Source: Asterochloris sp. CNOR1
Lineage: Eukaryota > Chlorophyta > Trebouxiophyceae > Trebouxiales > Trebouxiaceae
DNA length: 64,000 bases
Reading direction: 5' to 3'
Assembly (NCBI GenBank): GCA_963969365.1
Contig: OZ017757.1
Coordinates: 62,001-126,000 of the forward strand
The translations under genes were made by a program, and so were the position numbers. This document shows, piece after piece, positions 1 to 59,073 of the stretch; the first letter of the stretch is position 1; each line of letters starts with the position of its first letter. The notes beneath the pieces were generated by a model. That model was not told the origin of the DNA and ran no database searches. It was given only the letters and a program-made list of their open reading frames with translations.

Positions 1-8
1 ATCTGCAG

Positions 9-3000
9 GATCCTGTACTCATCCTGCTGATGGTGGCTGCACTGGTGAGCCTTGAGACTTCCAAAGACAAGGGTGTGCGCCACATACAAGTAGTGCATGT
101 GCAGAGTACATGAATGAATGTTGCCATGGTATGTGGGTCACTGGGCCCCCAATTGCTGACCCAATGAAGCAGGGAAGTAATGAATGGACTCCAGTGGATT
201 GGGTTTGACCATGCCCAAAACTAGGTCATGAATTGCAGCTCTTCAGTGATGCAGCAATCTGCAGTACTACACCCAAGCTGCTGGCAGCTCGAACTGCTTT
301 GAAGGTCTTTGCAGCCAAACATGGTTATGAGTGGATGTGGGGCACTGACAAGAAGTCTGTGGGCTGTCTGCAGGTGTCCACAGTGCTGGGAGCAGCTGTG
401 CCAGAGTCACGGCGCCAGAATGAGTGGACAGAGGGTGTGGCTATCTGGATTGCTGTCATTGTGGTCAGCTGCGTGGGTGAGTTTGCCTGTCTGGCCACAC
501 CTGTCTGCTCACACCACTGCTGCGCTGCAGCTGCCTCATGCCATGTGAGCACATTTGCTGAAGCAGCACTGTGCGCCTGTTCCTCCTGGCAGTCCCTGCC
601 TCAGCAGTCAACCAGCCCCAACAAATGCATGCTTTGCCTTGGTGCTCAGCCAAGCCTCGCCTGCCCTGCAGCATGCGCATGGTGCAACAGCACCCTTTTG
701 CCTGTGGTTGCAGCCACCACAAGCATGCAGTGCGGCCTTTGTCATGACACTGGCAGATTCTACCTGCTGCAGGCGCCGCCGACGCCTGCCCCATGATGAT
801 AAAGTCAACACAGCAGCTCATCACAAACCTAGCATGAACCCCACGGCTGTGCCCCTGCTGCAGGTGCGGGCAACGACTATCAGAAGGACAAGCAGTTCCG
901 CGAGCTCAATGCCAAGAAGGACGAGCTCAAGATCAAGGTGGTGCGGGATGGCAGAGAGTTCCTCATCCCCAACACAGAGGTTGTGGTCGGCGACCTCCTC
1001 AAGCTGGAGACGGGGGACAAGATTGCAGCTGATGGGTTGTGCGCGGAGTCCCACAACCTGGTGGTGGACGAGGCCTCGCTCACTGGGGAGAGTGATCCCC
1101 TGAAGAAGGGGCCTGAGGACCCCTTTGTCAGGGCAGGCACCCAGGTGAGCTCTGCACGTGACGCCTGCATGACCTGCCAAAGGGAACAGAGCATGAAGAA
1201 AGGGCCTGAGGAGGCTCTTGTCAGGGCAGGTGGGATGCCTTGAGGCGCCTGCATGAGATCTCCAGAGGGGACAGTGTGAGCGAAGTCGGGGCTAGAGAAC
1301 CCCTTTGTCAGTGAAACTGCGTCTGAAGGGTTCTTTTAGAAGAGGTTGATGGGCTGTGTCATGTAACCCCACAGCCTGGTGATGATGAGGGCTCCCTCAC
1401 AGAAAAGGGGGGGTGAGAGTCCCTTTGTCAGGACCCTCACCCAGCTCTGTCACATCCACAGCAGACTGGTCCAGCTGGTGCACAGCTGGCAGTGGACACT
1501 GAGCATTCGTGCAGCGATGCAACACAATAAGGCCTGCAGCCCTGGTGTTGGCTCAGCTCCTCAGCGCAACATGTGTTGCTGACAGCCCCTGCACGCAGAC
1601 ACCATGCAAGGAGTCGCCCCCTCATTGACCTGCAGCAACGAGCCCCCGCCAGCAACAAACTCCCACATGCAGACACCATGCAAGGAGTTGCCCACTGACG
1701 TCCCCCTCTCCCTGGCTGCTGCAGGTCAATGAGGGCTCTGGCAGCATGGTGGTCATTGCTGTTGGCCTGAACTCTGAGCATGGCAAGACGATGTCTCTGG
1801 TGATGACCGAGTCCGAGGACACACCTCTGCAGGAGACTCTGGGTGTCCTGGCCACCGGCGTTGGCAAGATCGGCCTCGCTGTCGGCTGCATCTGTTTTGT
1901 CGTGCTGCTCATCAGGTGAGCCTGGCACGACAGGACCAGCCTGCAATAGTACCTCTGCTGGGCACGCGCTGCTTCTGAGTGGTTGCCTGAACACCGTCAC
2001 ATGTCAGCAGGTACGTGACAAGCCTCCTGGCCAGCGTGCTGGCTGGCACACAAGCACAGTGCCCTGCTTGGGGTGCTCAGCAGAGTGGCCTCCCTGCACC
2101 CCTCTGGTTGCTGCACACCTTGGCTGCATTGAGGTGAGTGCCAATCCTGCAGTGGCTCAGAGAAGTGGACTGACCCCTGTGGTCCCCTGCTGTGCAGGTG
2201 GTGTGTTGAGAACCGCGGCTTCCCTGCTGACGGAATTGTGGAGGGGCCCCTCAACTTCTTCATCTTTGCTGTTACCATTGTCGTTGTTGCTGTGCCTGAG
2301 GTGAGAACACTGCTGCACAGCTTGAGCGGCCCTGCCAGGGGTCTGCTTCCTTGTGATGCTGTGACCTGTGCAGCCTCCCAACATCCCTGCCTGCTCAGCT
2401 GGGCCACAGCATGCAACGAGCCTCACAGTACACCTCTGAAAGGACCGTTTGCCACCACACAGGTGCCAGTATATTGAGCGCTCTGCCTTGCGAAGCCCAC
2501 CTACTCCCAGCCTAGCCTGCGTTGCACCTCAAGCCCAGCTGACACATGGGCACAGTACCTACTGAGCCCAATGATGTTGTGCAGGGCCTGCCGTTGGCAG
2601 TGACCATCTCCCTGGCCTACAGCATGAAGAAGATGATGAAAGACAACAATTTTGTGCGCGTCATGGCGGCCTGTGAGACCATGGGTGGCGCCACAGCAAT
2701 CTGCTCAGACAAGACCGGCACCCTCACCGAGAACAGGTGGGGAGTGTGCGGGCCAGGCCGCGCGAAGCAGCCACCGCCTCATCACGAGCAGTGCGCTGCT
2801 TGGAAGCTGCTTGCTCACCCCTTAGCTTGCGCCGCTCGACCATGCTGGCATGTTGCAACTCAGTACCCCTGGCGGTGTCCCAGTCGGCAGCAGTCCCTTC
2901 TGTGCTTGGCTGCAAGGTGCTGTGCCTCACCTGCAGGATGACTGTTGTGGAGGGCTGGTTCTCAGGCACCAAGTATGGTGTTGCCCCGCCCTTCACTGAC

Positions 3001-6000
3001 CTTCCCAGACACGCCCAGCAGGTCATTGGGGACAACATCGCGGTCAACTCCTCTGTGAGTAGCACACCTGCACGGTGTGCTCTCTTGGCTGCACAGTCTC
3101 CTCTGGCGAGATGACAGGGGGCGCTGCTTGCATCTGCTAGGCCCTGTAGCTCGCGCGGCATTGTTTCCCGTGGTGCCTTTACAATATGCACTGCAGGCCC
3201 AACAGTCTGTGTGTACGCAAACGGCCGGTGCCTGCCTCTGTGTGGGACCTTTTAGCAAGGCTTGGGGCCACTGACTGGGCTTCCACGGTGCCCTCCAGCT
3301 GCAGGTTATGCAGTGCGACGCAGCATGTCTCTGCATGGCCTTCTCGGCGCAATGGTGTATGCCTTGCCGTGCCTGCTGTCACAACCCTCACTCAAGCGCC
3401 TACCTCTTGCAGGCGTTCCTGGTCGTGCATGTGGGCAAGCCCACTGAGCTGGTGGGCAACCGCACAGAGTGTGCCCTCCTCCAGCTGCTGAGCAAGTGGG
3501 GCCTAGACTACAAGGCCATCCGGGAGGCCCACCATGACAGCATTGAGCACCTGTACGGCTTCTCCTCTGCCCAGAAGATGGCCAGCGTGCTGATGCGCAC
3601 TCCCTCTGGCCTCAGGCTATACAACAAGGTGGGTCACAGCGGTGCTCTCTTCAGTTTCAAGGCAGATGTGGGGCCTGAGCTTGATGCATGTTGTGATGCC
3701 TCAGGCTGGGCATGAGGTGGTACACCATGGTGGGTCCATGCAGTGCTCCCTGCAAGGCCAAAGTTGATGTGTTACCTTGCGCTTGTGCATGCCTCTGGCG
3801 GCACAACAAGGAGGAGGCCTTGCTGGCGGCACAGCTGGCAATCTGCTTGGGAGACCAATAAGTGGCTACCGAGGCCCTCCTGGCCATGCAATTTCTTATG
3901 GGTCAACTTCGTTGTCCGGTAGCACCATGTAGCATGTACGCATCCTGTTCCCCTGCCCTGGGCCCCCTTCCTCTTTTGCTATTGCTTCAAGCGCGGCCTA
4001 GCCCTTCCGTTCATCTGTGACACTCCGCTGATCCCTTGTGCTGACCAGCTACACCCCTGTGCTGCCTCCTGCAGGGTGCTGCCGAGATGGTGCTGGCCAA
4101 GTGCACGCACGTGCTGGACACCACGGGCTGTGTGGTGCCCCTGAACAGCGCTGCTTGCGAGCAGCTGGAGGCGACCATCACAGACATGGCCAGCAGGGGG
4201 CTGCGCACGCTGTGCCTGTCTTACCGCGACATAGGCGCTGACGAGGTGGAAGGGCTGGGCTCCCTGGAAGAGCCTCCCAACAAGCAACTGGTCTGCTGCG
4301 CCATTGCCGGCATCAAGGTTTGCACTGCCTTTCCCCTGCCTGCTGCCTGCTGCCTGAAAATGGTCTGCTACCCGTTGCCTGAAAATGGTCTGCTGCGCAA
4401 TTGCTCCAGTAGTCCAGGTCGGCAGGCTGGCCGGCAGGTAGCTGTGTCAGCTGCTTGCTGCTGGTTTGCTCTGCTGTGAAGCGGTGCCATACAACAATAG
4501 TCTAGGGACCCTGCCCACAGCTGAGCTTGCCAGATGCCTGATGCAGCAGCAGGCACATGTCGCATGCAATATGCTGTCAACAGGCCATGCTTCTTCAGCC
4601 AGCAGCCCAGCAGCCTGACTCAGGCAGTGGAGTGCCAGCCTCCACCGGACCTTCAACCTGTGTTCTACCCTGCCTGCAGGAGCCTGACACAGCAGGAGGT
4701 GCCACTTCAACCTCTGTTCTATGCTCCATGCAGGACTTTGGCACAGCAGCAGGCGCCACTTTCATTTCTGTTCTCTGTTCCCTGCAGGACCCTGTACGGC
4801 CAGAGGTTCCAGAAGCAGTGGCCACCTGCAAGAGGGCGGGCATTGTCGTGCGCATGGTAACAGGAGACAACATCGACACAGCCCGCTTCATTGGCCGCGA
4901 GTGCGGCATCCTTAAGGAAGGCGGCCTCGCGCTGGAGGGGCCAGCCTTCCGCAACATGAGCGAGGAGGAGATCGTCCCCCTGCTGCCCAGGCTGCAGGTG
5001 ACCGTGTCTGTTATCAGCTGCAGCAGGCACATGCGCCTGCCTCCTGAACCTGAGCAGTGTGAGAAAGCAGACCCAAGGTCCCTTGCAGAGCGCCCCTGCA
5101 GCATGCAAACGCCATTTCAACAGAGCGAAGCCTATGCTGCATGTGCTGTGCAGTGGGGCAGTGTTATGTTGCTTGGCTTTCAGCAAACTGGTGCGTAATG
5201 CAGTAGACCCGGGTCCAAGCAAGAGGCAGGACAGCATGGCTGCTGGGGGCTTGTTCCTGTTACCTCCCCATGTCCTTTGCTTCACATGTGTGCTATATCT
5301 GAATGTGCTACTGCAGATCCTGGCTCGCAGCTCCCCCACAGACAAGTACAACCTGGTGAGACTGCTGAAGAGTCGCGGCGAGGTGGTGGCTGTCACAGGT
5401 GGGCTTCCCTGCCGCGGCCCCAAGCAGCCTGCCTGGCCTGCATCCTGAGCTCGTGAATGCACGTCTGGCCTGGCTGCCCGCGTCTGCCAGCTCACTGCTG
5501 CCAGCCCTGTGTGAGCAGTGCTGCCCCCTGGAGTTGTCGGAGCAGTCCACTGGCCAGGCATGGCCTGCAATGTGCCTTCTCAACGCTGCACTGCACACAG
5601 TCGCCACCTGTTTCAGGTCCCTTTCAGTCCTGTGCACACAGCCTACGATGCACACTGTTGAACTTTGCACTTGCCTCCTGGTGTGCTGTGCACAGTCCTT
5701 GCCCTGCCTTGCCGCGCTGCTCAGACCTTGCCCTGCCCTTTTATTCTGCTCAGTCCCTGCCCTGCCTTTCTGGGCTGCTGGCAATGGCACCGACGGCATT
5801 CCCGCCCTGAAGAAGTCCCACAAGGGCCTGACCTGAAACACTGCTGGCACAGATCTTCTGTACTGTGCACACAGCTCAGCTCAGTCCTGGCGCTGCCTAT
5901 CTGCGCTGCAGGCGACGGCACCAACGATGCCCCCGCCCTGAAGGAGTCCCACGTCGGTCTGGCCATGGGCATTGCGGGCACGGAGGTGGCCAAGGAGGCT

Positions 6001-9000
6001 GCTGACATTGTTATCATGGACGACAACTTCCGATCCATCGTCAAGTCCGTCCTCTGGGGCCGCTCCATCTTCGCCAACCTGCGCAAGTTCCTGCAGGTGG
6101 GGCTGTCCCTGCCTGCGCTGCTGCAGAGCTTACTGCTCTGCAGTGGCTAGGGAACCATGCTGGTCGATGCTGCCAGAAACTCTGAGGCTGCTGTTTCGTC
6201 ATCAGCAGACGGGGACACCTTGATTCACTGCCCCTGCCTGGCCTGCAGTTCCAGCTGACAGTCAACTTTGTGGCGCTGGTCATTGCCTTTGTGGCGGCTG
6301 TCACCAGCGGAGAGACTCCTCTGAACGTCATTCAGCTGCTGTGGGTCAACCTCATCATGGATGCCCTTGGCGCCCTGGGTAAGTGAGCAGCCTGCAATGG
6401 CAAGAGTGAAGCCCTTGGCTGAATGCTTGACTGTCTGTCTGCTTCTGTCACAGATGTGTTGTATGCAACAATGCTGCTTTGCTCAGCTGCTAACTATGTG
6501 CATGTACTCAAGCGTGCATCAGCACCACTTGCAGCCGTCTCGCTGCACTGGATAGCTTGCATCTGCTGCAGCCAGCTGGCTGCCACCTGCAGCATTGACC
6601 TATCTGATGAACCAATGTTGTCAGGCCAGCACCTGCTCACGTGCTGCCTGCAGCTCTGGCCACCGAGGACCCCACCCCAGACCTGCTGGAGGTTCCCCCC
6701 AATGGCAAGCATGACTGGATCATCAATGGGTGCATGCTCAAGCACATCTTCTGGCAGGTGGGTCTTTGGCTGCACGGCCGTCATTATATTCGTGGGCCAG
6801 TCGTCATTATTGTGTTCACATGCTGTGCGGCCCAGCCTCAGTGTGTGAGATCAACCTCAGCAGGCCACATCTGGCTGCTGAACTGTGCAAGCCCTGCTCA
6901 GCCCACAGGTGCTGCTCCAAAATTGCTTCTGGGGCATGGCAGCCTCATCGTAGACCCAGCTGTGAAGCTGTCTCGAGCTCGCCAGGTTCCTGCAAGGCTG
7001 CTACCAGATTTTGCCTGCCCCTGCTGACACGGCCAACCTGGCTGCTCTGCAGGGCTGCTACCAGCTGTTCTGGCTCTTCCTCATAGTTTATGGGGCACCC
7101 GCCCACCTGCCCCACTACCACGTCACCACGCAGTGCGAGACCATGTCCCACCTGCACACGGACGAGTATGGCGGCCTGCTGGCTGTTAACCTCAAAAATG
7201 TGACGACCACGCCGCCCTACCGGAACCTGGACCTGTGCTGCTCTGGGGCAGAGTGCTATACCAACGGCGGGGTGTACTACCAAGGTAGGTGCAGCAAGCC
7301 TCTCCAAAGGAGGCAGATAGGCATTGCATGCATAGTATGCAGGGTGCATGCTGAGCCTGTGCACGCCACATGTTTGGCCCAGGCTGTGCTGGGAGCCCAC
7401 CGAGCATGCAGCGCACAGGCAGAGCTGGAGTTTGGCTGCAGACCTTGAGCTTCCTGAGGTCCCATGGCCGGCAGACCATGGCCAGGAGGGGGGCAGTGGC
7501 AACAGTGTCAGCTTACAATGCTGTCTTGTCTCCACCTTGAAGCATGATGATCTGCGCCCTGGCCGGCCAAACGAAGCAGCAATGGACCCACAGCTTCAGT
7601 TGTCTTTGTGTGATCCCTGCAGGCGAGCTGCCTGTGTGTGAGGTGACGGGCCCCACCATCAAGGACTGCATATTTCACGACCCCGCCCAAGATCTTGCCC
7701 GCTACTGCGACCCCGGCGTGACCAGCTGCGAGCGCCACCAGGAGTTTCAGGACCTCTGGACTAGGTGGGCTGCAGCATACGACTGTCCTAGCGTCCTGCC
7801 ATCATCAAGCCGTCAAGCCATTGTGGTCACAATGAGTGCGTGGTGCCAGTGCATTCCAGAGCAGAGGAGGATGTCTGCACAAATCTGCTCTGATTGCCTT
7901 CGCAGCTTCTCAGTCTTGTGGTGAGGTGTTGGCTGCCTTCTTGCCCCTTGCCTGCTGGCTGCTTGTGCGTCCACCTTTGCAAATTCCTCAATGCTGTGCT
8001 TGCGGGCTCCTGCAGGCGAGAGACTCTGCATGAGCACGACGTGACAGAGAGCCAGAAGAGCTACAATTCCGTGGTCTTCAATGCCTTCATCTTCATGCAG
8101 GTCAGCTGTACTTGAGTTGAGCTGCCAGGGCTTCTCTACCGGCCTGCATGTATCAACAACAGGCCTGTGCTGCTGAGCCATGCCTGACGTGCTTTTAGAC
8201 CAGCAGCCGCCAGCTCTCTTTGTGAATCGCTGTCTGTGTGCATTGGGCTGTGTTCAAGTCATGACTGAGCTCTCTGGCTGTAAACAGCTGTCACCTGCTG
8301 TGCTCATACTTGTCCCGCTCCGCAGGATGCATTGCCGGCTGCACCGGCTGTTTGACTCAGTCCTTGTCTGCCTGTCCATGTCTGACTACCTGCCTGATGC
8401 ACTTCTGTGCACTGGCTCACTGAAGCGCTTGCCTGCAGATTTTCAATCAAATCAATGCACGCAAGGTCCGGGAAGAGTACAACGTGTTCTCTGGCTTGTG
8501 GCACAGCAAGGCATTCCTCTACATCCTCACGATTGAGATTGCCCTCCAGGTAAGCCGCCCAGGCCTGGCTGGGCCTGTCCATGCTGCTTGCCCTGAGCTG
8601 GAGTTTTGTGCTGCATCTGCGTGACTGCCACCCTTGGGCTGTGATAGCAGCCACACCTCCACGCTAGCACACCTTTGGCGGTGGGAGTGATGCAGCACCG
8701 CCTCAAGCTGTCAAACTTTGTTTGGAAAACCTTGAGGCGCAGGTCTGTGCTGCGCCTTCTGTGCATGTTTTGACCCTTCCACAGCTTGCAGGCCTTCAGC
8801 AGTGGTCCTGTCTGTGCAGGTGGTCATCATGGTCACGCCGCTTTCCACGTTCTTCAAGGTCGTATGTCAGGACTGGAGGGAGTGGCTGTTTGCCATTGCT
8901 CTGGGCGCAGGCTCGCTGCTCATGGCGATGGCAATCAAGTTTGTCTCAAGGTTCCTGCCAGCCATTCAGTGCAGTTATAGGCCCAAGTCCAGCTTCAAGT

Positions 9001-9354
9001 GAGTCCATGTGCTGTTGATGATTGCTTGTGCCTCGAATGCGCTCTGCAGGGCCTGCCAGGGTGGGAGCAGCATCTGACTTTAGCAGTGCTTGCCAGGGTC
9101 CTGATCAGCTGTACTTGGCTACTGTTGCCTGCACTGCTTGGGCTGCTTGGCCACAAGCAACAGAACAGCTTCAGCCTTACCTGTGCACTGCTTGAGCAGC
9201 CTGGTGACAGCTAGTGATGCTGGGCACCTTTGCCTGTAGGAAGGCAAAGCAGAAATCCAGTGGGATGCACTCAAACACAGAGGAGGTTCCACAGAAGCAG
9301 CAGCAAATTGCAGCCGTCAAATCTAGAAACAAGGACCCCTTGCAGAACGTGTAG
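9..9354 (+). CDS. Type IIB P-type Ca2+-transporting ATPase (5' partial, 20 exons)
   Basis: Pumps Ca2+ across a membrane at the cost of ATP. Exons: 9-44, 374-476, 864-1144, 1725-1915, 2198-2300, 2585-2736, 2937-3054, 3413-3628, 4075-4317, 4788-4997, 5317-5398, 5912-6096, 6249-6378, 6654-6757, 7053-7284, 7623-7764, 8016-8100, 8439-8549, 8820-8998, 9240-9354. They total 3018 nt and close exactly to 1005 aa plus stop. Visible motifs: SLTGES in the actuator domain, VPEGLP in M4, the phosphorylation site DKTGT (Asp at partial residue 280, nt 2708), TGDN, and the hinge GDGTNDAP (residues 579-586). M5-M10 follow, with NLIMDALGA in M6. The M7-M8 loop is about 125 residues with eight cysteines, unusual for the family. 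The C-terminus is short, with no evident long calmodulin-binding tail; the N-terminus lies before the window. PMCA/ACA-type pump is secure; the target membrane is not known. Confidence 0.93.
1190..1447. repeat. Three degenerate echoes of Ca2+-ATPase exon 3 inside intron 3
   Basis: The end of exon 3 (1050-1144) recurs in the following intron at about 1190-1232, 1280-1316 and 1368-1447. Shared marker is the CCCTTTGTCAG stretch and its flanks. The third copy is the longest: it aligns from CCCACAACCTGGTGGTGGACG-like sequence through the donor region. All carry substit­utions and indels and do not keep the reading frame, so they are intronic fossils rather than extra exons. Confidence 0.75.
1621..1733. 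repeat. Perfect 17-bp inverted repeat spanning a splice acceptor
   Basis: 1621-1637 (CTCATTGACCTGCAGCA) is the exact reverse complement of 1717-1733, which covers the TGCAG acceptor and first codons of Ca2+-ATPase exon 4. The loop is 79 nt. In pre-mRNA the two arms could pair and cover the acceptor. It may also be simply an inverted echo of the junction. Pairing in vivo is inference. Confidence 0.6.
4608..4787. repeat. Tandem echoes of the exon-10 acceptor junction
   Basis: Three units of 54-70 bp, each ending in a TGCAGG acceptor-like sequence, lead into the true exon 10 start at 4788. Each unit opens with a degraded version of the exon start (AGCCTGACACAGCAGGAGGT, ACTTTGGCACAGCAGCAGGC against ACCCTGTACGGCCAGAGGTT). 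Just upstream (about 4360-4410) two short copies of the preceding exon's end (GTCTGCTGCGC) also occur, so this intron carries echoes of both neighbours. Confidence 0.7.
5760..5834 (+). repeat. Decayed duplicate of Ca2+-ATPase exon 12 start (hinge motif)
   Basis: Within intron 11, 5778-5834 reads [18 protein letters not shown] and then a stop, against [20 protein letters not shown] in the true exon at 5912. The pyrimidine-rich tract before the exon is duplicated too. The catalytic hinge Asp is changed to Asn, and the open frame ends at once, so inclusion would inactivate and truncate the pump. Best read as a fossil exon; use as a poison exon is only a possibility. Confidence 0.75.
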
Positions 9355-11296: not shown

Positions 11297-11765
11297 CATG
11301 GGCTACATGAGATACTCAGGCAGGTTGCTTTTTAGGACCGGGAGCGGCTCACTGATTCTCAGATCAGATACCTGAGACTGTTCGCAGCCTACTGCCACTG
11401 CAACGTACGTGAAGATCTGGCGGAGCAAGCAGAAGACCCTATCAGAGTGGCGAACGGGCTTCCCTTGGGCCCAAACTGCTGCTACTTCTTGGATTCAGGG
11501 TGATTTCCCCTGATGTGAGCAGCAGCTGTGTCTGTCGTCACCAGCTTCTGCAAGGCACCTGTGCTTCACAGGTCGGTTGTTGCAGGCCAGAAGAAAAGCA
11601 GTTGGACACCCTCATACGAGGGCGTTATCGGAGCCAGGAGCCTCTGGCAGCTTCGTGCTCAGGGGGACATAAGACTCTTCCAGACTGCAGTTGCCGGTGG
11701 AGATCCTCGGTAGATGCTTGTGGTTTTGAGTGGGAACAAATCAGTGACAAGCTCAAGGCAATCTG

Positions 11766-11965
11766 AGCTGCTTTTCTGTCATGTGGTGCAACACCATAGC
11801 TGCCTTCTCTCCCTGTTGGGAGATTTGCGCAGCTGACCTGCAGGTCTGTGATGGCAAGATGGTGGTAGAGTATGACGATAGTGACCAAGTCAGCAATGCT
11901 GTTTTCTGTCAAGTGTTGGCAGCCCTGTGTGAGTCTCTTTCCGAGCCCTGCACAACTGCCTCGCA
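11766..11965. repeat. Duplicated intron end plus acceptor in ankyrin copy A
   Basis: The segment CTTTTCTGTCATGTGGTGC...CTGCAG (about 11770-11856) recurs as GTTTTCTGTCAAGTGTTGGC...TCGCAG (about 11898-11966), each followed by exon-like sequence (VCDGKM and LDKHVEWLQF). Copies B and C have a single acceptor here. This is therefore a copy-A-specific tandem duplication of an acceptor junction. Confidence 0.6.
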
Positions 11966-12713
11966 GCTTGACAAGCATGTTGAGTGGCTGCAGTTTCTGG
12001 TCAGGCCATTGCTGCTGGAGCAGTGGGGTCTGGAGGCAGAAGGGGAGATCTGGTACCAAGGCATGGCCTGCCTTGTGCACAGTTCCTACCTTGCCTTACA
12101 CGCGCTGTGACCTCCAGCTCTGCCTGGGCACCCTGAAACTAATCAAAGTGGCCACATGTTACTGTGAAGTGGTTGGTGCTGATGTCTGCCGCCCCTGCAG
12201 ACGAGTGGATGCTGGACACGGGACGCATCTACATCGACAGTGAGGCTGCTGTCGTCAGGGAGGACACAAGAGACATGCAGAACATTCTTGGATTTGCAGT
12301 CAATGGCGACGTGGAAGCCATGCACCAGGTCTTTGAGGATCAGGGCAGCATGGTGAGGAAATGGTGAAACTGCCGTGCCTGCCACAGCACTCACCCCTCA
12401 GTATTGTTCCTTGCCTCTCAGGTGGATGGCTTTTCGTACACGCCATTTATGCTGGTGCGGCTGAGTCTTGCTTGAAGGATGTTTGTGCCTGGAGGGGGAT
12501 ACATTGGCCATGGACTGTGCAATGCAGGCACTGAAGCACAAAGAATTCGATGCAGCAGTGTGGCTCCTGCAACAGCCCGGAGGCGCCCGGCTGGAGGTCT
12601 TTGCAGATCAGGGTGCACTTGTCGTGCTGGTGCCTGCTCCTGCATGTGCATCTTGTAAGCTGTTCAGAAGCGCAGCATCCGCTTATCGGTGCCTTGACGT
12701 ACATGTTGTCTGC

Positions 12714-20364: not shown

Positions 20365-20456
20365 CTGGTTGCCTGTCCAGCTGCCGGGAGAAAGAGGCGC
20401 CTCGGTGGCATTCTTGCCTTTGGACTCGCCCCCAGCCTCCTCCAGAACAGGCTTGC
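20365..20456 (-). CDS. Candidate exon of an unidentified gene
   Basis: Bounded by an acceptor (CCTTGTAG, plus-strand 20457 onward) and a donor (CAG|gtactg). It reads GKPVLEEAGGESKGKNATEA then PLSPGSWTGNQ, a hydrophilic coding-like peptide. No partner exons could be joined with confidence and the family is not recognised. Confidence 0.25.
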
Positions 20457-42116: not shown

Positions 42117-42180
42117 TTCTATGCTGCCCTCCCGTCTCAACTTCACCAGCTCCTTCACCAGGTATTGAGTCAAGCATGTC

Positions 42181-49400: not shown

Positions 49401-50659
49401 GAGGACAGACTGACCCGCCCCAGGGCGGAGCTCCTGCAGAGGCAGCCAGCAGTGCACTGTGCTCTCTGGGCTGTAGGCAAGAGCAGATCTTGTGCCTGGT
49501 GTGCTGCCGCTGGCGTGCTGGGCGGATCGGCCTGACCCAGCGGCGCAGCTCCTGCAGAGCCATGGCTGGCAGGTCGGGCAATGTGGGTGAGCAGTGTCAG
49601 CTGAGAGATCGAGAACGCCTGCTGCAGCTGACATCGCTCAGCTCTGAGGCGCGGTATAAGCATTGTGGGGCTGCCTGTGACCAGCCTGCAGCAGCAGTCA
49701 GTCAGACAGGCAGCGCCAGCTGGGCACTGATTTATTCTGTCCAAAGAGCGCACACTGCATGCAGCACCTGTACATTGTGGGCACTGGCAGGCTGGCCAGT
49801 GCAGTGAGCGTGTGTGGGCTCTGCATCATGAGTCTTGGCGTCCTACTTGTACCATGCATGGCATGAGGGCCGGTAATCCGGCTGATGTTCTCCTGCTGGG
49901 CATGAGCAGCTGCTAAGCAAGAGCTTTGAACTTGGCACTGCCTTCCTCTGCTTGTCCCAGACGGGGACGCAGATATGATGGGAGGCACCGCAAGGGTGGC
50001 CCACAGCCTGTGACTGCCCAGACCGGCGGCTGTGAAGGCGCCTTCAGCACGCCAGACCTGCACTTCCTGCGTGAGATCCTCGGTGGACAAGCATTGAATG
50101 GTCGTCCTGACAGCCATGCGCACCAACCCCAGCCAACAGACAAAGTGCTTACCCTTCAGGCTGTGGCAAACTCTCTGGAGTCACATCAAGCCCCAAGGCT
50201 AGAGGGCTCTCGAGCTGCTGCCTCCGCCAGAGGTCTGCCCAGCTTGGTAAGGGGCACCTTCATGTAGCCTGAACCACGTACCCAACAGCAGGACCTGGTA
50301 TGGACAATCAAGTGCAGGAAAATCCTCCAAGTCAATGACGTTGCTGCCGCCCACCTGGTCTGCGCCGCAGCAAGCACTCAGGAGGCGCAACAAGACTCAA
50401 AGCTTGGAGGGACGCCATGCGGCTGCCTCCACCAGAGGCGAGCCCAGTATGTACTGCACCGCGCTCAGGAAATGGAAACTCCCCTCGCTCTGTGGTATTT
50501 TAAGTGCAAACAGACCTCCAGGTCGATGACGTTGTTGCCATCCACGTCCAGGCTGTGGAACACCTCCCGGCACTTTGTGAACCCCTTGTCCAGGTGGTTG
50601 AAGCGCAGCAGCAGCTTGTTGAAGCTGCTGGAGCGGGCCTCCTTGCGGCCGGCCTTCTT
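46404..50659 (-). CDS. Four-EF-hand calcium-binding protein (N-terminus not resolved)
   Basis: Ca2+ sensor of the calcineurin-B/CBL-like kind. Minus-strand exons: 50659-50516, 49331-49179, 48249-48193, 47969-47916, 47309-47174, 46612-46404; 753 nt, 250 aa plus stop, all phases close. Canonical 12-residue loops: DVDGNNVIDLEE (residues 38-49, split across an intron), DLDGNRVVDFRE (74-85), DASKDGFMDRSE (127-138, split), DWDNNGQISFKE (177-188, split). Three of the four loops are interrupted by introns at the same place or nearly so. After EF4 comes an acidic stretch (LDDDDDKVDADSDEE) and a basic, Ser-rich tail ending SSMKVKP. The first exon begins KKAGRKEARSSSFNK after an acceptor at 50660, so at least one 5' exon with the ATG is missing from my model. 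Confidence 0.85.
48822..49045 (-). repeat. Echoes of EF-hand exon 2 end
   Basis: The exon end (coding LAILYMFSTE, to 49179) recurs at about 48985-49045 (minus: GCCATCCTCTTCATGCTCAG) and 48822-48862 (minus: GGCCATCCTCTTGATGTTTG). Both lie in the intron following that exon. Confidence 0.75.
49424..49566 (-). repeat. Echoes of EF-hand exon 2 acceptor
   Basis: The acceptor and first codons (CTGCAG|GAGCTGCGCCAGGG, start 49331) recur as CTGCAGGAGCTCCGCCCTGG (about 49424-49445) and CTGCAGGAGCTGCGCCGCTG (about 49538-49556), spaced about 110 bp. Both could act as decoy acceptors. Confidence 0.75.
50189..50450 (-). repeat. Echo of EF-hand exon 1 end and a tandem intron unit
   Basis: Minus-strand GGCAGCAACGTCATTGACTT GGAGG (about 50330-50355) copies GGCAACAACGTCATCGACCT GGAGG at the exon end (50516). 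Around it, 50189-50250 and 50400-50450 (plus: GCTGCCTCCRCCAGAGG) are tandem copies of the same intron segment about 200 bp apart. Confidence 0.7.
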
Positions 50660-51776
50660 CTGCAGCAGGCAGCGGCAGCCATTGGTGCAGCGCTGCGGGC
50701 AAGAGCAGCGTGTGGGAGGCAGGGTGTGTGCTTCATGCAGGTAGTGATGGGCACCCTCTGCTGTGTACAGCACTGCAAGAGGACGGGTGCCAGTCTCGTT
50801 CAGCAGGCAGCAGTGGGCATGGAGGCCCAACCGGCACCAAGAGGCAGCCTTCTTCTGCAGCAGATGCGCCAACATTCATTGGCGCAGCAGTTCATGCAGA
50901 AGCATTTGGTGGCTGGTACAGGAGCCGGATTACAGCCTGCCGTCTCCTGCAGCAGGCAGCAATGGGCATGCACCAGCAGCAGGCCCTGAGGCCAGCCTCA
51001 TGCTGCGTAAGGCGCCTATTTTAAATCATGTCATTCCTGCAGTTGGTCCTCTCTGAAGCTGGCTGTGACGCCATGTCTCATTGAAGTGCCAACAAGCAAA
51101 GGCCCAGCAGCCTAGGGCCCCTGCTCTGTTGCCTGATAACACAGCATTCTTGATACTGCAATGTGGCTGGTCCTGTTCTGCACCCGCCAAAAAGACCTGT
51201 GCAGATCAAGAGCACTGAAATGCCTTGCAGCCAGGTTGCCTGCTGCAGGGACTGCTCCACTTGCTTTGGCGTCTGCCTCAGCAGCACCTGGGGCCATTGC
51301 CTGGAGCTGCCTGTCACTCCTCTGCCCCGTGGGGCGCACAGCAGCTTCTGCTCCAGCAGAGCAAGCCCCTGGCATGGCTGCAGAGCTGTGCTGCCTGGCA
51401 GATGGCTGCAGTCACCCTGCCAGGCCCACCAATTTGTAAGCAGATCCTCCGCGGACCAGGCATGCCATCTCTATGCATGCGGCCTCAGGTAGCTGGCCTG
51501 TTCATGAATGGTTGCATGCTGCACCTTGATGATGTCTGCCAGCTTCTCATCCAGGTAATCGCTGTCCCCTTGCTTGCCGTCCGCTGCAGAGCACACCGGT
51601 GTGCCCAATCTGCCACCCATGCTGCCCGGCTCTGTCTGGAATCAAGTCGCTTCTGGATGCATGCCGGCACCTGCCAAGACCTGTCTCTGTGCTGCTGTCA
51701 GACGGATTTCCAATTCCAAATTTTTTTTGTTCATGCAGGCAGCAAGTGCTGTGAACTTCACCAAGGTAGTGGTCAG
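50660..51776. other. Region between EF-hand and coiled-coil genes
   Basis: The two genes diverge here, so both promoters and missing 5' exons should be within or near it. 50838-50870 holds an echo of the EF-hand exon-1 acceptor (minus: CTGCAGAAGAAGGCTGCC). A minus-strand ATG at 51072 (MASQPASERTNC) is a possible EF-hand start, but no donor follows. A run of T precedes ATGCAG at 51720-51738. Confidence 0.4.
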
Positions 51777-54700
51777 GTGCAAAGGTTGCAAAGTGACAGT
51801 GGCGGGCGGCTGAGCACACACATTGGGATGGGAGTGCAGCATGGCACCTCTGACAGCCTGCGCTCTGCGGAGGCCCGGGTAAGTTACCTGCATCAATCAT
51901 GCTGAGTGCCTCTCTGGGCGCACGTGCTGCAGTGCACAGCAATATGGGCCCCTCATCACAGTGCTTGCATGATGCAGCAGACCATTTGCAGGCCAGACCA
52001 CGCTGTTTGCTTTTGCGCATCCCTGCTCGTGCGCAGGCCTGCACTATCACCACGGAGCTGGGCTTTCAGAGTGACCTGCAGGGTTGCTGGCAATCACACT
52101 AGTATGCCCAAGGCCTCTCCCTTGGCAGAAGGGTAGTCTCAATGGGGCTGGTGGTGCCAGCGGCGCCGGCCGTCTGACTCTCTCACAAACTGTGCCCTGA
52201 AGTCTGTGCAGTAACGTGGGAGCTGGGCAACCTCAAAGCGGCCTTGTAGCCCTGCTGACACTCTGAAGCTCTGGGCACAATTTCCCCACTCTGTGTGCAG
52301 GCCCCTCACTCATGCGTGGGGCGCTCCAGATCGTGCACACACGGCATGCTCTAAAGTGGCCAGATTGTTGACAGCATTTTCGGCTCTGCGTGCAAGCGTC
52401 TGTCCTGAACTCAGGGGCTGGGCGTCCTCAGAGAGGACCTGCAATGCTGCAGCCAGACCCTTTTCTCACATGTGAAGCCCCGTGCCTGCAGGCTGCCCGG
52501 AGAGTCAGGGACCAGGCATGCTCACAGGAGGCTACAGCGCAGGCCAGCCTGATGACAGCATGTCTCAGTGCATGTGCAGCCCCACAGATTTGACTTGGGA
52601 GCTGAGCACACTCAAAGAGGCCCTGCAATGCTGCAGCCCTGTTGTCACCTGTGGCCCTTCTGTGCAGGCTGACTGAAGAGGCAGGGGCCGAGCATACTCC
52701 AGTAAACTCACAGGAGGCTACAGCGCAGACCAGCTTGTTGACAGCATGCCGCAGTGCATGTGCAGGCCCGCGCCCTGACTCGGGAGCTGGGCGCCCTCAA
52801 GGAGGACCTGCAGCGGGAGCAGAAGCGCCGCGCTCGGGCGGTGCTGCAGGCGCAGGAGGCTGAGGGCCTGCGCCTGCAGAGCGAGGGGCGGGTCAAGCAG
52901 CTGCAGTACAGCAACAAGTGAGCTGATGCTCTCATGCCCTAAGCGAGGGGCGAGTCAAGCAGCTGCAGTACAGCAGCAAATGAGCTGATGCATGTGTGGT
53001 CGTCCGGCATGGGGCTGCAATGCGTTGACATGCAGCTGGTATGCCCTGAGTAGCAAGGCTGCAACCTGTCAACAGCAAGTGCTTCATCCCCAGAAGCAGG
53101 GACAGCAACAGTATCGCAACAGGTGAGCTAGTGCTCTGAATGTGTCTCTGTCTGCCATTGGCCCGCACTTTGTCCATTTGCAGCTGTTGTGCACTGACGA
53201 AGCGAGGGGCAGAGCAGCTGCCATGCCTGGACAAGTGAGCAGCAGAGCAGATGTTTTTTTCTTGACAACATTAGCTGACAATGCTGTCTCTTAGCAGGAC
53301 TTCATCACTGCGGCTGCTCCCTGCAGCTGCACTGCAGTGAGCACTTGCCCATCCGCAGCAGTGCTCCAGCAAGGCAGGGGCACCTTGAGCGAATTTGCAG
53401 CACTCCGTAAGAGCAGGGCTGTCCCCTTCCAGATCCACCTAATGCTGCTTAATGCCCCGTGGCGTCAGGTGCCTGGCTGCAGGGGCATGTCGACAAGAAG
53501 AGACAGGAGAAGACCAGCATACCTTGCAAATCCGCAAGAACATGTGCTTCTACATCAGACAACTACTGCCCTCACTGCATGGCTGGCCTAGTGTGGTCAG
53601 GAATGCACAACGCCTCTGCACACCGTTGTGTGATGCTGGGGCCATGCATCGGTGGTGTTACTGCTCTACCTGCGCTTTGCACCGCAGTGCTGCAGCATGG
53701 AACATACATCAGGGCATGACAAACTCTGCAAGTGTAATGCGCTCAGTCTGCAAAATGCCCTGCCTGCAGAAAGTTGGGACAGGAGCTAGCCACAGTCCAG
53801 GAAGGCGCCCGTCATGGGTCTGCCAAGCACAGGGCCGCTCTGCACTCCCTCAGGTGCGCTTGCTTGCCTGGGAGGCGTGCATGCTGGCTGTGCATGGACC
53901 AAGCTGGTGCAGGACCTGCCTTGAGCCCGGCTGGGTGGCCCCTGCTGTTACTTTGCCATCGGCCTCATTCAAGGAAGAACTTGCTCCTTGGGTGCAGGGG
54001 TAATGCAGCAATTTCACAGACCAATCCCATTGTCACAGTGCAGTTCAAGTTGCTTTGAGCGCAAGTGGCATGGCTGACTCCAGGGTTGCGCAAACCTTCT
54101 TCACTGAGACCCACGGTGCAGGGAGTGCTTGGCAAAGAAGGAGGGTGTGACGTAACTGGCAGGTTGACTCCAAAATGGTGCAAACCTACTTCACTGAGAC
54201 CCACTGCTGCAGGGAGCAGTCAGCAAAGTAACAGGGTGTGGCACAATTGGCATGCCTATGACTGAAAGTAATGCAATGCATGCTGCTTCACTATGACCCT
54301 GTATTGCAGGAAAAGCTTGGCAAAGAAGAGGATGTGGCAGAACTGACAAGGCGACGCCAGAATGGCGCAAAGCGAGACCAACTGCTGAAAAGCATGCCTG
54401 GCAAAGCACAGGGTTTGGCATACCTGGTCGACTGCAAAGGGATGCATCTGCTTCACTGAGACCCCCTGCTGCAGAGAGCGGTTGGCAGATGTGGAGGAGA
54501 GCGTGGCAGAGCGCAGCTCAGAAGTCCACCGGCAGCTGCAGCGCGTGTTCTCACCCCTCCAGGTGCGCTCCAGGGTCAAGAACATTATCAATCAATATTA
54601 CTGCACAGGCGGCTGCAGGGCATCACCTTAAGCCATCCTGGGGAGCTTGTGAGCACCAGTGCACCAGTGCCGCTGCCCATTGAGTTTGTCACAGCAGGGA

Positions 54701-57700
54701 TGGCAGCAACAACTTGCAGTCACAGCAACTTGTTGGCCTGCTTCTGTTGCCGAGTGCCTTCATTGGTCTTGAGTTTTGCGATGTCTGAAGTATTGTGGCT
54801 GCGTTGATTCTGCTTGTCAGAGGCGACTCCCTTCTCCCACCTGAGCCCGCACTGCGGCTGCCAGGCGTCACCCCTGCAGCTGGTGCCCTGTGGCAAGCAG
54901 CTAGCCCTGCAACGCTTGCACTGTGCGTGCAGGAGCTGCAGCGACTTCTCTGCACTTGTGCCTGCAGAGGCTGCAGCGACTCCTCTGCACCGTGCCTGCA
55001 GGGGCTATCATCACTCCTCTGCACTGTGCCTGCAGGAGCTGCAGCGACTCCTCTTCAGCCCCTGCGACCCAGCAGACCCTCTGAACATACCCCCGCTGTC
55101 ACACGAGGTCGCTCAGCCTGTCCAGGTGAGCTTCCACAGCCTGCAGGCCCCTGCACTTCAGCGAACTTTCTGAAGGCGCTCCTACAGTCAGATGAGCTTG
55201 CTCAGCCTGTCCAGATAGGATACGCGGCCTGCAGACCCCTGGAATCCAGCGAGCCTAGGGCTAGCGATGTCATGCTGCCCACGCCCCAGACAACAAAGTA
55301 GGCCTCAGCTGCCTTGGGTGGCGACGCTCTGTTGCTCATGGCGGTCTTAAGAGAGGGGCTCATGGTGCGGGGAGGGAGGGGATCCAGCTGGCAGAGGCAG
55401 CTCGGTGCCAGGTCTGCTGACTGTCTTCCTGAGAGCGTCCATCACATGCGGGATGCGCACAAGGATACCATTCGGGGTGCAGCCGCCTCAACGGCACACA
55501 GGTCTAGCATCAGCACAGTGGGCAGGCATGTCTGGTCAGCAGCAGCCCCTTCTGAGTGTTGGCCTCCCTGAGAGCACCAGCCACCTGCAGGAAGCGTTTG
55601 GGGACCTGATGCGGGCGTGCAGCCGCCTGAGCAGCACCTGCGGCGGGCACCAGCACTGTGGGCGGGCATCCCTGCCCAGCAGCAGCCCTGTCACGCTGGA
55701 GCTGGAGGCAGTGGAAGACGAGCAGGACCGCCTGAGCAGGGAGGTCGCGCAACTGAAGGTGCAACGCTGAGCGACTCTGTTCATTTGGGAAAGGCAGCAA
55801 GCACAATGTAATGCTGGCTCAGGTGAAGGTAAACTTACAACCTGGGCTACTGTTGGATACAGCATGATTGGCAGCAGCAAAGCTCCGAACATGGTGTGGC
55901 TCATGAACTCAGGGCGACAGCATGATATGACCAGAGAGGCGCCCACCTCAAGGAGCAAAGATGATACACTGGATTGCAGTGTGACTGTGGGCACACAGAA
56001 GGGCAGCTTTGCAGCCCATTGCCATACATGCAGCCTGCTACCTGGCTAATTGCTTGATTTTCAATGTCCCTGCATGCAGAGGCGCGAGTACACAGAAGGG
56101 CAGCACTGCAGCCCATCGCACACCTGCAGCCTGCTACCAGGCTGTCTTGACTGACCATAAATCTGCCTTTGTTTTGCAGGCCAAGGCGCGGGCACGCAGG
56201 GATGCAGCGTCGCAGCCCAGCGCCGATGTGCAGGCGCTGATCCCTGAGTACAGGGCGGCCCTGCAGCAGCTACGGGGGCAGCTGGACCAGGCCAGGGTGC
56301 AGCTCGAGGAGGCACAGGCAGACAACAAGACCCTGGAGCAGCAGGTGAGACGCAGGATAGTGCGGGACTCAGAAGATTGGTATGGGCATTGCTTCGCAGC
56401 AACTTGTGCTTAGCTGGGTGGACGTACAAGGTGAGGAACCAGTGCGCTTGAGCAGCAGGGGGATGCACAGCCCGGCCCTGCTCTGTAACGCACCACTGGC
56501 CCACACCTGAGTGCAGCAGAGAGTGGTCCTTTTCAAGCCTGCAGGCACCACTGCATGCAGATATGGCCGCCTGAAGGCTTGGCTGAGGCAGCTCATCAGC
56601 ACATCTGTTCACATGTTGCAGCACTTGAGGGTGTTTACATGTGGCAGCACTTGAGGGGGCCATGTGTCCAGTGTGGCAGCACTTGAGGGGCCCATGTGTC
56701 CAGTGTGGCAGCAGGTAGCCAGGGGATGCTGCAGATCTGGCTGCAGGTGCTGCACGCAGTGGGCAGGCCTGCACTCAGTGAAAGCGCTGCACATTTATGC
56801 AGCACCAAGAGGTGGAGGGCAGGGGGCCCTCACACTGCTGCAGCAAATGCTTCTGGTGTCAAATCTGCATCAGGGCTCTCTGAAGAGGTCGCGGTGGGAA
56901 CCCTCTGCTGAGGCCTGTCCCTGCACTGTGCTGCAGGCCTCCCTGTGGAAGCAGCTAGCCCGGGACAAGGATGGGGCGGCCCAAACTGGAGCACGGGCGG
57001 CCGTTCCCTCCCGCAGACAGGTATTGCCCGGCAGCAGACTCCGCTGTCCATATATGTTATTCCATATGTAACAAACTTTGAGGGGCTGAGCAGCAAGGTC
57101 TTGGGAGAGGTCCTTGCCTGTGAGAGACGCCACCTGCCAGACATGCTGGACGACTTGCAAGATGCCACATGCCAGCACTGGCTCTCGAAGCAGGCTTGTC
57201 TGTGCGGGGTTTGTTTGTCAAGGCCAAGATTGCAGGCGCTGCCCTTCACCCTCAATGAGTGCTTGCTGCTCCTGCAGGCTGCCCACCCGGCAGCTCACAG
57301 CTGCCACAGCCAATGGGGTCGCTTCACTCTCAACAAGTGCTTGCTGCTCCTGCAGGCCACCCACCAGGCAGCTGACAGCTGCTGCAGGGTTTAGGATTTA
57401 AGGTACACATCTGCCACAGCCAGTGGGGTCCCTGTGCCGTGCCCCACTGCCGTGCTGGTGCATGGAGCATCGGCAAACTCCCACTCGTGCACCTGCAGGC
57501 GCCCCGCAGCTATGAGCCTGCACCTGCAATTTTGGCCTGCACTGCAGCAGGCGTGAAGGACCTACATGTGCTGCAAAAGGCTCGGCAGGCACAGGAAGAT
57601 GAGGAGCTGTCGCAGTCGACCAGCTGCAATGCAAGCAGCTGCACAAGGGGTGGCTGTGTCTGGCTGCAGGCTTGGGGCAGGGGTCAGGGTCAGCTGTGAG

Positions 57701-58796
57701 CCTGCACCGCAGCAAGCGTTGAGGATCCACTCCTGCTGCAGGCGGCGCGGCAGGCGCAGGAAGTTGAGGAGCTGCAGCAGCATGTGGGCGCCCTGAGGCA
57801 GCAGTGCAGCCGGCTGCAGACGGACCTGCGGCGGGTGCAGGGCGAGAATGCAGCCCTGGCGCGGGATCTGGAGCAGCGTGAGAGGGACCTGGAGGAGCAG
57901 CGCCGGCGCATGCGGGACCTGCAGGGCACCATCCAGGACCAGCGCGCCGACATCCGCTCCGCCCTGGACATGGTGAGCGGCCGGTGTCCAAAAGCTACTA
58001 CCCTCAGGTACAGAGTCAAGCCAAATTCTTACACCGTGAAGCCTGTCAGGCCCTGGACTTGGTGACCGGCCGCTGCTGGGCACCCCTACTGCTCTCAGGT
58101 AACAGTAAAGCCACATCTTAGTCTGCTAGGCCCTGGACATGGTGAGCGGCCGGTGCATGCGTGCTCGGGGCGTCTTTCAGCGCAGTTGCCCATGTGACAC
58201 CCTTTCTTGCTTCTTGTCTTTGCCATGGCTGTACAGGGTGAGCGGAGATCAGTTTCAGAGGGGTGTGCAATGGCTCAGGCAGTTGGTAAGTCCATAAAGG
58301 ACACCAGTGCTCAGTTTGACCAGTGCTTGTGGCAGGCGGTCAGCTCTAGCTTGCTGCTGGGCGTTGCAACAAAACAAATGGCTGCCCATAGTATAGACAA
58401 TCTGAGGCAATCAGTGTGACATGGGGGTCTTGATGGCCTTGTTCGGTGGCTTGTGCACCTGCGACTCACTGCAAAGCCTCAACCTCCTTCACGCATCCCC
58501 TGCAGGTGTTGACGCGGCAGGGCACCAGGTCCGAGACAGCTCTGCACGAGGACGTGACTCCTCCTTGCAGTCCCTCGCACACAGCATACCACCGATCAAA
58601 GGCAGCTGCTGGAGAGTGGGCCCTGTCGCGGTCCAAGGCAGCTGCTGGAGACTGGGTCCTGTCACATGGTGGACGGGCAGGCGGCTCCTCAGCACAGAGG
58701 AGGCATCACTCCCCAAGCAGATCCTTTGACAATCTCAGGCAAAATGTTGTTGACTTGGACGCTGACATCGCCGATCTCAAGCGGCAGCTGTGTTAG
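51777..58796 (+). CDS. Coiled-coil protein (5' end uncertain)
   Basis: Exons: 51777-51878 (tentative), 52766-52917, 53770-53853, 54475-54562, 55036-55125, 55591-55758, 56180-56344, 56937-57020, 57742-57972, 58506-58796. From 52766 on they total 1353 nt, 450 aa plus stop, with every phase closing. The product is rich in heptad-like Leu/Ala with charged Glu, Arg and Gln: ALTRELGALKEDLQREQ, ALQQLRGQLDQARVQLEEAQ and CSRLQTDLRRVQGENAAL are typical segments. This predicts a long helical rod, interrupted by Pro/Ser-rich exons (55036, 55591). The C-terminal exon has a tandem SKAAAGxW repeat and ends LDADIADLKRQLC. No motor or globular domain seen and no family recognised; centrosomal, cytoskeletal or tethering roles are all possible. 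Its introns are the most echo-rich of the window. Confidence 0.75.
52205..52640 (+). repeat. Three ~187-bp tandem echoes leading into exon 52766
   Basis: The segment coding LTRELGALKEDLQ recurs upstream near 52218, 52414 and 52597 (GGGAGCTGGGCAACCTCAAAGCG; GGGGCTGGGCGTCCTCAGAGAGG; GGGAGCTGAGCACACTCAAAGAGG), with the working copy at 52782. Spacing is 183-196 bp. GCATGTGCAG before the third echo matches the true acceptor. The functional exon is the 3'-most unit. Confidence 0.8.
52946..53235 (+). repeat. Echoes of exon end at 52917
   Basis: GCGAGGGGCGGGTCAAGCAG...AACAAGTGAGC (real, to 52923) is followed by copies near 52946-52990, 53095-53130 and 53200-53240, each ending in a GTGAG- or ATGAG-type donor or its remnant. 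Confidence 0.75.
54090..54474 (+). repeat. Tandem echoes of the acceptor before exon 54475
   Basis: CTTCACTGAGACCC...TGCAG recurs at about 54102, 54192 and 54287 before the true acceptor at 54452-54474. The following GGCAAAGAAGAGGATGTGGC resembles the exon start TTGGCAGATGTGGAGGAGAG. Confidence 0.75.
54933..55035 (+). repeat. Three ~34-bp tandem units before exon 55036
   Basis: GAGCTGCAGCGACTTCTCTG, AGGCTGCAGCGACTCCTCTG and GGGCTATCATCACTCCTCTG, each closing with TGCCTGCAG, precede the exon start GAGCTGCAGCGACTCCTCTT. Every unit carries a usable-looking acceptor. I chose the last because it alone leads into a long frame-compatible exon. Confidence 0.75.
55430..55590 (+). repeat. Echo of exon 55591
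   Basis: GTGCAGCCGCCTCAACGGCAC...CAGCACAGTGGGCAGGCATG (55478-55540) copies the exon interior GTGCAGCCGCCTGAGCAGCA...CAGCACTGTGGGCGGGCATC, and CCTGAGAGCGTCCATCACATGC (55430) copies the intron end CCTGAGAGCACCAGCCACCTGC. Confidence 0.75.
55985..56170 (+). repeat. Tandem intron units before exon 56180
   Basis: CACAGAAGGGCAGCTTTGCAGCC and CACAGAAGGGCAGCACTGCAGCC begin two ~95-bp units (about 55993 and 56090). The second unit's GCAGAGGCGCGAGTACACAG prefix resembles the exon start AGGCCAAGGCGCGGGCACGC. Confidence 0.65.
57535..57620 (+). repeat. Echo of exon 57742 start
   Basis: GCTCGGCAGGCACAGGAAGATGAGGAGCTG (57579-57608) copies the start GCGCGGCAGGCGCAGGAAGTTGAGGAGCTG at 57745. The preceding CCTGCACTGCAGCAGGCGT also recurs at about 57701. 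Unit length is about 165 bp. Confidence 0.8.
58040..58165 (+). repeat. Echoes of exon end at 57972
   Basis: GCCCTGGACATG|GTGAGCGGCCGGTG (real) is followed by GCCCTGGACTTGGTGACCGG (about 58050) and GCCCTGGACATGGTGAGCGG CCGGTG (about 58130). The last is identical to the true junction over 25 bp, so it may be a usable alternative donor. Confidence 0.8.
58594..58665 (+). repeat. In-exon 36-bp tandem duplication
   Basis: 58594-58629 and 58630-58665 are two copies of a 36-bp unit inside the last exon, coding SKAAAGEWALSR and SKAAAGDWVLSH. The frame is kept. It shows the duplication process also reaches coding sequence. Confidence 0.8.
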
Positions 58797-59073
58797 AGAC
58801 ATAGATTAAAACCCAGAGGGCTGCTGAAAGTCAGTGCACGCATACTTGTTGGGCTTGGCAATGACTGCTGTATCTGCACAATTGTCACATGTGCCTGTTG
58901 TCAAGAAGAGATGAACTACACAGATCTCAGCCTCCTGCTGAAGGCAGAGTGGTGGTGGGTGTGCATAGTATGCTGATGCTGTCATCAGGCCATGAATCTC
59001 AGCTTCATAGACTGGCTGAGCTGAGGGTTCCAAAGCATTTGAGCTGGGCGGTGCATGAAGTTCGGTCCCACAA
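58797..59073. other. Intergenic
   Basis: 3' region of the coiled-coil gene; no TGTAA noticed close to the stop. Nothing further seen. Confidence 0.4.

Follow-up and report, generated by a model that had tools for sequence, protein, structure and literature searches.

Introns in a 64-kb stretch of the alga Asterochloris sp. CNOR1 (the window; bases 62001-126000 of contig C12) contain copies of the ends and starts of their neighbouring exons, splice sites included. An initial annotation had read these exon echoes as leftovers of intron gain under the Rogers model, in which exon sequence holding AGGT is duplicated and gives a new intron (as outlined in the available text of PMC3443670 and PMC4974935). 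The locus raises the question of whether such echoes record the birth of introns or a change in introns already in place, and how widely they occur.

Genome sample and gene models

The assembly comprises 56.38 Mb in 21 contigs, with C1-C18 at 2.0-4.5 Mb each. Its small contigs include C20 (110056 bases) and C19 (43319 bases); the smaller circular contig of Trebouxia measures 109.5 kb (accessible part of PMC12712428), and given this closeness in size C20 may be an organelle genome. Besides the window, we sampled 25 stretches of 10 kb from the same assembly, among them the paralog stretch L026. Local repeats beyond the window were compared by blastn in 23 readable 10-kb stretches picked by position. 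L021 (C3:2400001-2410000), which is all N with a GC of 0.0 and was thus either withheld or left unassembled, falls outside these 23, and L013, with at least 100 N, was left out of the gene-model set and of every later count.

Exons of the Ca2+-ATPase gene were placed by protein homology with GT-AG borders and served as the seed for training a gene finder, a two-strand hidden Markov model trained on 294 kb (the window, 22 random stretches and one paralog stretch). Over the range from exon 864-1144 to exon 8439-8549, the gene finder reproduces the homology-placed exons with borders that are identical or a few bases off, and it adds tiny extra exons to this gene. Since an echo is sometimes modelled as an exon (for example, 4680-4698), intron and echo counts are approximate. 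Splice sites are strong in the gene model (donor CAG/GTGAGC, acceptor CTGCAG/G, the slash marking the border). From these author-built models we took 371 introns between confident exons, with a posterior of at least 0.8 at both sites; 65 of them lie in the window.

Ungapped repeat scans used a score of at least 17 and a separation of up to 1 kb. Simple-sequence pairs were removed before the coverage, junction-copy, intron-echo, age and echo-locus counts, and the intron-echo count took only pairs within an intron and its two flanking exons, leaving out exon-exon pairs.

Local repeats are in excess and in direct orientation

A blastn comparison of the 64-kb window with itself found 43 direct repeat pairs and a single inverted one at a spacing below 1.5 kb, 44 in all; 40 dinucleotide shuffles of the window yielded none. 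The ungapped scan found 120 direct and 12 inverted pairs in the window, against shuffle means of 1.7 and 2.0, respectively. Similar results came from elsewhere in the genome. Across the 23 readable stretches there were 49 direct versus 2 inverted blastn pairs of at least 40 bits; 17 of the 23 stretches had one or more direct pairs, and no such pair appeared in three shuffles each of 30 pieces (window pieces included, one piece all N). In 22 stretches the ungapped scan gave 266 direct and 51 inverted pairs, with a mean of 8.7 shuffled direct pairs; coding or simple repeats make up part of both the direct and the inverted excess there. Exon-exon pairs account for 69 of 246 filtered direct pairs in the 22 random stretches and are perhaps repeats inside proteins. 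In L020, eleven direct pairs with a spacing above 1.5 kb fall within a single 10-kb stretch.

Tandem duplication, the source that the initial annotation had proposed for the echoes, is supported by the predominance of direct over inverted pairs in the ungapped scan and by an intron of L026 whose positions 3050-3273 contain a head-to-tail copy of 108 bp (116 nt aligned at 97% identity). Repeats cover 15.7% of intron bases in the window versus 3.2% of bases between genes; the corresponding values in the random stretches are 6.9% and 2.4%. This lower coverage between genes fits poorly with a uniform process. For the other 23 stretches, the ratio of intron to intergenic pair density was 1.6, which is not significant (bootstrap 0.57-13).

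Exons match their own introns in and beyond the window

For the 308 introns of 120-700 nt in the set of 371, we aligned 40 nt from each exon end with the following intron and 40 nt from each exon start with the preceding one, at a score of at least 14. Exon ends matched their own intron in 28 of 308 cases and exon starts in 23 of 308, with 0.6 expected for each when introns were exchanged; reverse-complement controls gave 3 and 2 matches among the 308. Similarity between introns and their flanking exons thus exceeds the exchanged-intron control, and we confirm that the echoes are real. Chance or low complexity as their source is ruled out by the shuffles, the inverted controls and the other-intron controls.

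At a score of at least 17, an exon or junction echo is present in 75 of the 371 confident introns of the window and 23 other 10-kb stretches. The window is richer (20 of 65 introns) than the remaining stretches (55 of 306), so that the genome-wide spread once suggested holds beyond the window, within a 0.4% sample, at a density below that of the window.

Introner-like or other mobile elements could in principle have made introns that resemble one another, and we found no point that supports them. Only 1 similar intron pair occurred among the 371 sampled at E 1e-5, both members in the window, and exons match their own intron rather than others. The near-absence of similar pairs rules out introner-like elements for the sampled 371 introns, and we regard an origin from mobile elements as extremely improbable. 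The sole similar pair joins an intron on the + strand of the window to one on its - strand.

Echoes occur in six modelled genes of the window

Of the 120 direct window pairs, 55 have one copy that contains exon sequence and another within an intron; merging gives 49 distinct intronic echoes, although some exons counted as sources were predicted ab initio and may be echoes themselves. By modelled gene, the 49 divide into 15 in tRNase Z, 14 in the coiled-coil gene, 7 each in the Ca2+-ATPase and NIPA genes, 5 in the EF-hand gene and 1 in one further gene. All five genes for which echoes had been reported therefore contain them, as local direct copies far above the number in shuffles.

The main host of homology-checked echoes is a PMCA-type Ca2+-ATPase gene at 1-9077 (+), truncated by the start of the window and identified by its gene model and a PDB match to plasma membrane Ca2+-ATPase (E 1.5e-190). 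Three echoes of the end of exon 864-1144 lie within 1194-1444 (+) in the following intron (1194-1230, 1282-1311 and 1402-1444; scores 27, 20 and 21; periods 93, 180 and 300). A donor-junction echo at 3709-3771 (+) matches 3608-3670, a segment that runs across the end of exon 3413-3628 (score 23). At 4651-4794 (+), Tandem Repeats Finder and alignment reveal an array of about 2.7 copies of a 54-bp unit that comprises a pyrimidine tract, TGCAG and exon-start-like bases; adjacent units are 79% identical by alignment, and the array stops at the true exon start, 4788. A 109-nt echo at 5745-5853 (+) is 73% identical (score 51) to 5876-5984, the true acceptor and start of exon 5912-6096, and its own acceptor AG is changed to TG.

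Three of the five reported genes lie on the - strand. The one with a NIPA domain (15528-22672; PF05653, E 7.3e-07, above the Pfam cut-off) has 7 echo loci (15792-18705), of which the one at 16908-16942 (-) echoes the start of exon 16637-16813 in the preceding intron (an aligned copy of 16786-16820, score 21). This model may be two genes fused. Its 5' part and the model at 11513-13286 (+), on opposite strands, have similar first exons, and the two are perhaps a duplicated gene, fused with NIPA in the model. The modelled long-form tRNase Z gene (27557-40679; PF12706 and PF13691 above cut-off) has 15 echo loci (28224-37939). Among them, 29192-29266 (-) echoes the end and donor of exon 29362-29548 in the following intron (an aligned copy of 29311-29385, score 43) and retains the GTGAGATGCAG donor stretch. 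The modelled EF-hand gene (46404-51620; PF00036, E 2.3e-13, above the Pfam cut-off) has 5 echo loci. A compact open frame at 45803-46087 (+) resembles CutA; it was missed by the gene finder, and its sole match in the genome is itself.

On the + strand, the modelled coiled-coil gene (51828-59780; coiled-coil Pfam matches, all below cut-off) has 14 echo loci; beyond about 59.3 kb its model probably takes in a separate DUF4379 gene. Exon 52766-52917 has a young echo of its end and donor at 52942-52991 (+; 94% identical, aligned copies at 52880 and 52942); the echo has AT in place of the modelled donor GT, and 12 unmatched bases separate the copies. Similar open frames with zinc-ribbon-like repeats occur at four window sites (42169-43329, 44321-44854, 59282-60127 and 63086-64000); the one of the four scanned for protein families, at about 59.3 kb, matched DUF4379 (E 1.2e-13).

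The initial annotation had also stated a position rule, with echoes of an exon end in the intron after it and echoes of an exon start in the intron before it. The rule stands in the homology-placed Ca2+-ATPase gene; it also follows from geometry, since only the intron-side copy can be absorbed.

Duplicated units usually carry an existing junction

Because the Rogers route duplicates exon sequence with AGGT, the donor and acceptor of one intron are expected to be homologous in register. We compared them in the 346 of 371 introns that are at least 100 nt long. No intron had an in-register donor-acceptor segment scoring at least 10 (0 of 346; 0.42 expected by permutation), and mean in-register identity across the 346 was 0.2595, against 0.2555 +- 0.0034 when permuted.

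Repeat copies that run across a junction were found at 32 donors and 26 acceptors of the 371 introns; the corresponding control counts were 19 for intron midpoints and 14 and 16 for exon midpoints. We mapped 77 partner copies of spanned junctions. Fifty-one, 27 from donors and 24 from acceptors, are in the same intron, and for each of these the parent repeat spans the junction by at least 8 nt on each side, which means that the unit crosses an existing exon-intron border. None of the 51 lies within 3 nt of the other splice site of its intron. Pairing is mainly of the same type, donor to donor and acceptor to acceptor, and the splice dinucleotide is kept in many same-intron copies (GT in 18 of 27, AG in 19 of 24). 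The remaining 26 of 77 mapped copies lie outside the intron in question and count against a border-duplication reading.

Of 74 distinct junction echoes, 62 coincide with no modelled junction, 10 with one of the same type and 2 with one of the other type. Both of the last are at modelled exons of at most 26 nt, and 4 of the 74 coincide, judging by models only, with same-type junctions of exons of at least 45 nt. Together with the register counts, these numbers indicate that the duplicated unit is usually an existing junction with both flanks. As many echoes hold an existing splice site and the sequence on either side of it, the intron in these cases predated the duplication.

Two paralogous genes share intron positions but not echoes

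The stretch L026 holds a second PMCA gene, whose protein is 79.8% identical to that of the window gene over 748 aligned residues, with identical bases at 171 of 269 four-fold sites. The two genes, the only pair that we compared, share 12 of 12 intron positions (the first Ca2+-ATPase exon, whose frame did not join, was left out). Their intron sequences are unalignable except for matches of 14 and 19 nt in two introns.

Exon or junction echoes scoring at least 15 are found in introns 1, 6, 7, 9 and 12 of the window gene and in introns 4, 8 and 12 of the paralog. Wherever only one of the two genes bears an echo, the echo-bearing intron is the longer one (6 of 6, a small sign result that was defined after looking): 580 versus 408 for intron 1, 405 versus 200 for intron 4, 446 versus 376 for intron 6, 470 versus 296 for intron 7, 391 versus 319 for intron 8 and 513 versus 233 for intron 9. 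The comparison points to old PMCA introns that grew.

These results bear directly on intron birth, in which duplication of an AGGT-holding exon stretch would have made the introns and left the echoes behind. Tandem duplication does occur here, as the 108-bp copy in L026 attests, and the route is documented elsewhere (according to the available text of PMC3443670). Against it stand the 346 introns with none in register, the 51 junction copies with none at the other splice site and the intron positions common to the PMCA paralogs; very old gains would have lost the register signal and may have occurred. On the register test of 346 introns we reject Rogers-type birth as the explanation and leave it a very slim chance of accounting for the echoes. 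The initial interpretation as a whole is therefore partly supported: duplication and spread are upheld, and Rogers intron gain is not.

Length, age and reading frame of the echoes

Introns with an exon or junction echo have a median length of 546 nt in the window and 459 nt elsewhere, compared with 264 and 249 nt for introns without any pair, a difference that is partly expected since longer introns offer more room for repeats. The identity of intron-intron pairs falls with distance (rho -0.36, n=89). Exon echoes show no such trend (rho -0.06, p 0.53, n=116), contrary to the earlier impression that their divergence grows with distance.

Young pairs are few. Identity reaches at least 95% in 10 of 213 intron-related pairs, in 3 of 169 with segments of at least 30 nt and in none of the 91 longer blastn pairs; a simulation at constant rate predicts about 7-8% of pairs at this level. 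For the suggestion of a continuing process, the 10 of 213 is close to the simulated value and gives weak support, and the 0 of 91 speaks against it.

Repeat periods show little preference for the reading frame. Those of the 91 blastn pairs divide into 31, 30 and 30 by remainder modulo three (31 of 91 divisible by three). Among exon-related periods, 46 of 116 are divisible by three, and remainder 1 is rarer (24 of 116). In-frame exon growth as the main fate of the duplications is rejected, as periods are not mainly multiples of three.

The same counts bear on whether the copies are functional, that is, alternative splice sites, duplicated exons, or new exons or introns arising from arrays. Many echo sites would be serviceable by sequence, with 15 of 27 donors and 19 of 24 acceptors scoring above the 5th percentile of used sites, and the 10 junction echoes on same-type modelled junctions, 4 of them of exons of at least 45 nt, point the same way. 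The 62 of 74 junction echoes on no modelled junction, the loss of AG or GT in some clear echoes and the lack of a predominance of multiples of three (31, 30, 30; 46 of 116) argue against function, which we consider improbable as a general explanation. Mutually exclusive tandem exons likewise differ from what we see: they are whole spliceable exons, whereas 62 of 74 junction echoes are on no modelled junction (from models only).

Probable growth of old introns by junction-spanning duplication

The reading that we favour, and think probable, is that junction-spanning tandem duplication lengthens old introns and that selection on exons decides which copies survive. It starts from direct observations, namely the excess of local repeats, their direct orientation, same-type pairing without in-register pairing, shared intron positions with unshared echoes, and longer echo-bearing introns. 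Small head-to-tail duplications of tens to a few hundred bases would arise in genes of the alga, presumably through slippage or end joining, either of which fits the data. Events restricted to an exon would mostly be lost because they damage the protein; events inside an intron or across one exon-intron border could persist. After a border-spanning event, the outer copy would stay as exon and splice site, and the extra piece of exon would turn into intron. As the exon copy is conserved while the intronic copy decays, the pair would still be recognizable as an exon echo. Repeated events of this kind would extend the intron step by step and leave the working exon at the edge of an array. We infer both the role of selection and the use of the outermost splice site.

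How much of the pattern such filtering may explain was gauged by a simulation in which duplications were placed uniformly, exon-only events were removed and exon copies were conserved. Simulated ratios of exon-containing to intron-only pairs were 0.64-0.92 and 0.83-1.17; the observed ratio was 116:89, or 1.30. Selection together with slower decay of exon copies would thus explain most of the pattern and leave a modest excess at junctions. Because 1.30 lies above every simulated ratio, junctions may be somewhat favoured or the simulation may be too simple.

Duplication might accordingly be targeted to junctions or favoured there, by transcription, splicing intermediates or repair, beyond any filtering by selection. 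The observed 1.30 against the simulated 0.64-1.17 would fit this, as would the lower repeat coverage between genes, but the excess is modest and sensitive to how the simulation is set up, there are many intron-only pairs (89), and the difference between intron and intergenic density is not significant in the other 23 stretches. We judge such targeting unlikely, though less so than the other alternatives. A bolder form of the lengthening model, which we think less likely than not, is that in this algal lineage border duplication is a major and enduring route of lengthening, is somewhat junction-favoured beyond selection, and continues to supply near-intact spare splice sites; the spliceosome must then choose the outermost copy consistently, and some arrays would become new exons or introns.

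Relation to known cases and implications

To our knowledge, the lengthening of introns has been studied less than their birth or loss. Messer and Arndt (2007) reportedly found that tandem duplication is the usual form of short insertion and a common mutation, and a study by Zhuo and others (2007) reportedly concerns human introns that arose from tandem arrays.

The closest known case, in the text available to us, is the potato RdRp gene, in which the 3' part of an intron and the start of the next exon were tandemly duplicated with the splice signals carried along (Ma, Lan and Niu 2016, PMC4974935). There, as in the alga, the unit crosses an exon-intron border. The potato event made a new intron in one gene, whereas in the alga the copy is mostly absorbed into an old intron, in many genes. 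The Rogers model and its Drosophila cases (accessible part of PMC2891723) likewise involve local tandem duplication in genes at splice sites; the model predicts in-register donor-acceptor homology and an intron as long as the duplication, which we did not find in 346 introns. Rogers and Bendich 2025 describe, in the portion available (PMC11782384), short direct repeats of 4-30 bp near splice sites. These resemble the echoes in being direct repeats near intron borders, but the 5' border pairs with the 3' border, whereas in the alga donors pair with donors and acceptors with acceptors over tens of bases.

Among the matches listed in a search of open-licence PMC papers by titles and the starts of abstracts, none described junction echoes as a genome-wide feature or as a common record of intron growth. 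Single boundary-crossing duplications are already known, and the duplication model of intron gain is well known.

One warning follows for work on intron origins: exon copies in introns are not evidence of intron birth without a donor-acceptor register test. For the alga, near-copies of one splice site lying close together constitute a natural test of splice-site choice. About one-fifth of confident introns (75 of 371) retain a readable trace of one growth step, and these traces would allow each event's rate, age and side to be measured.
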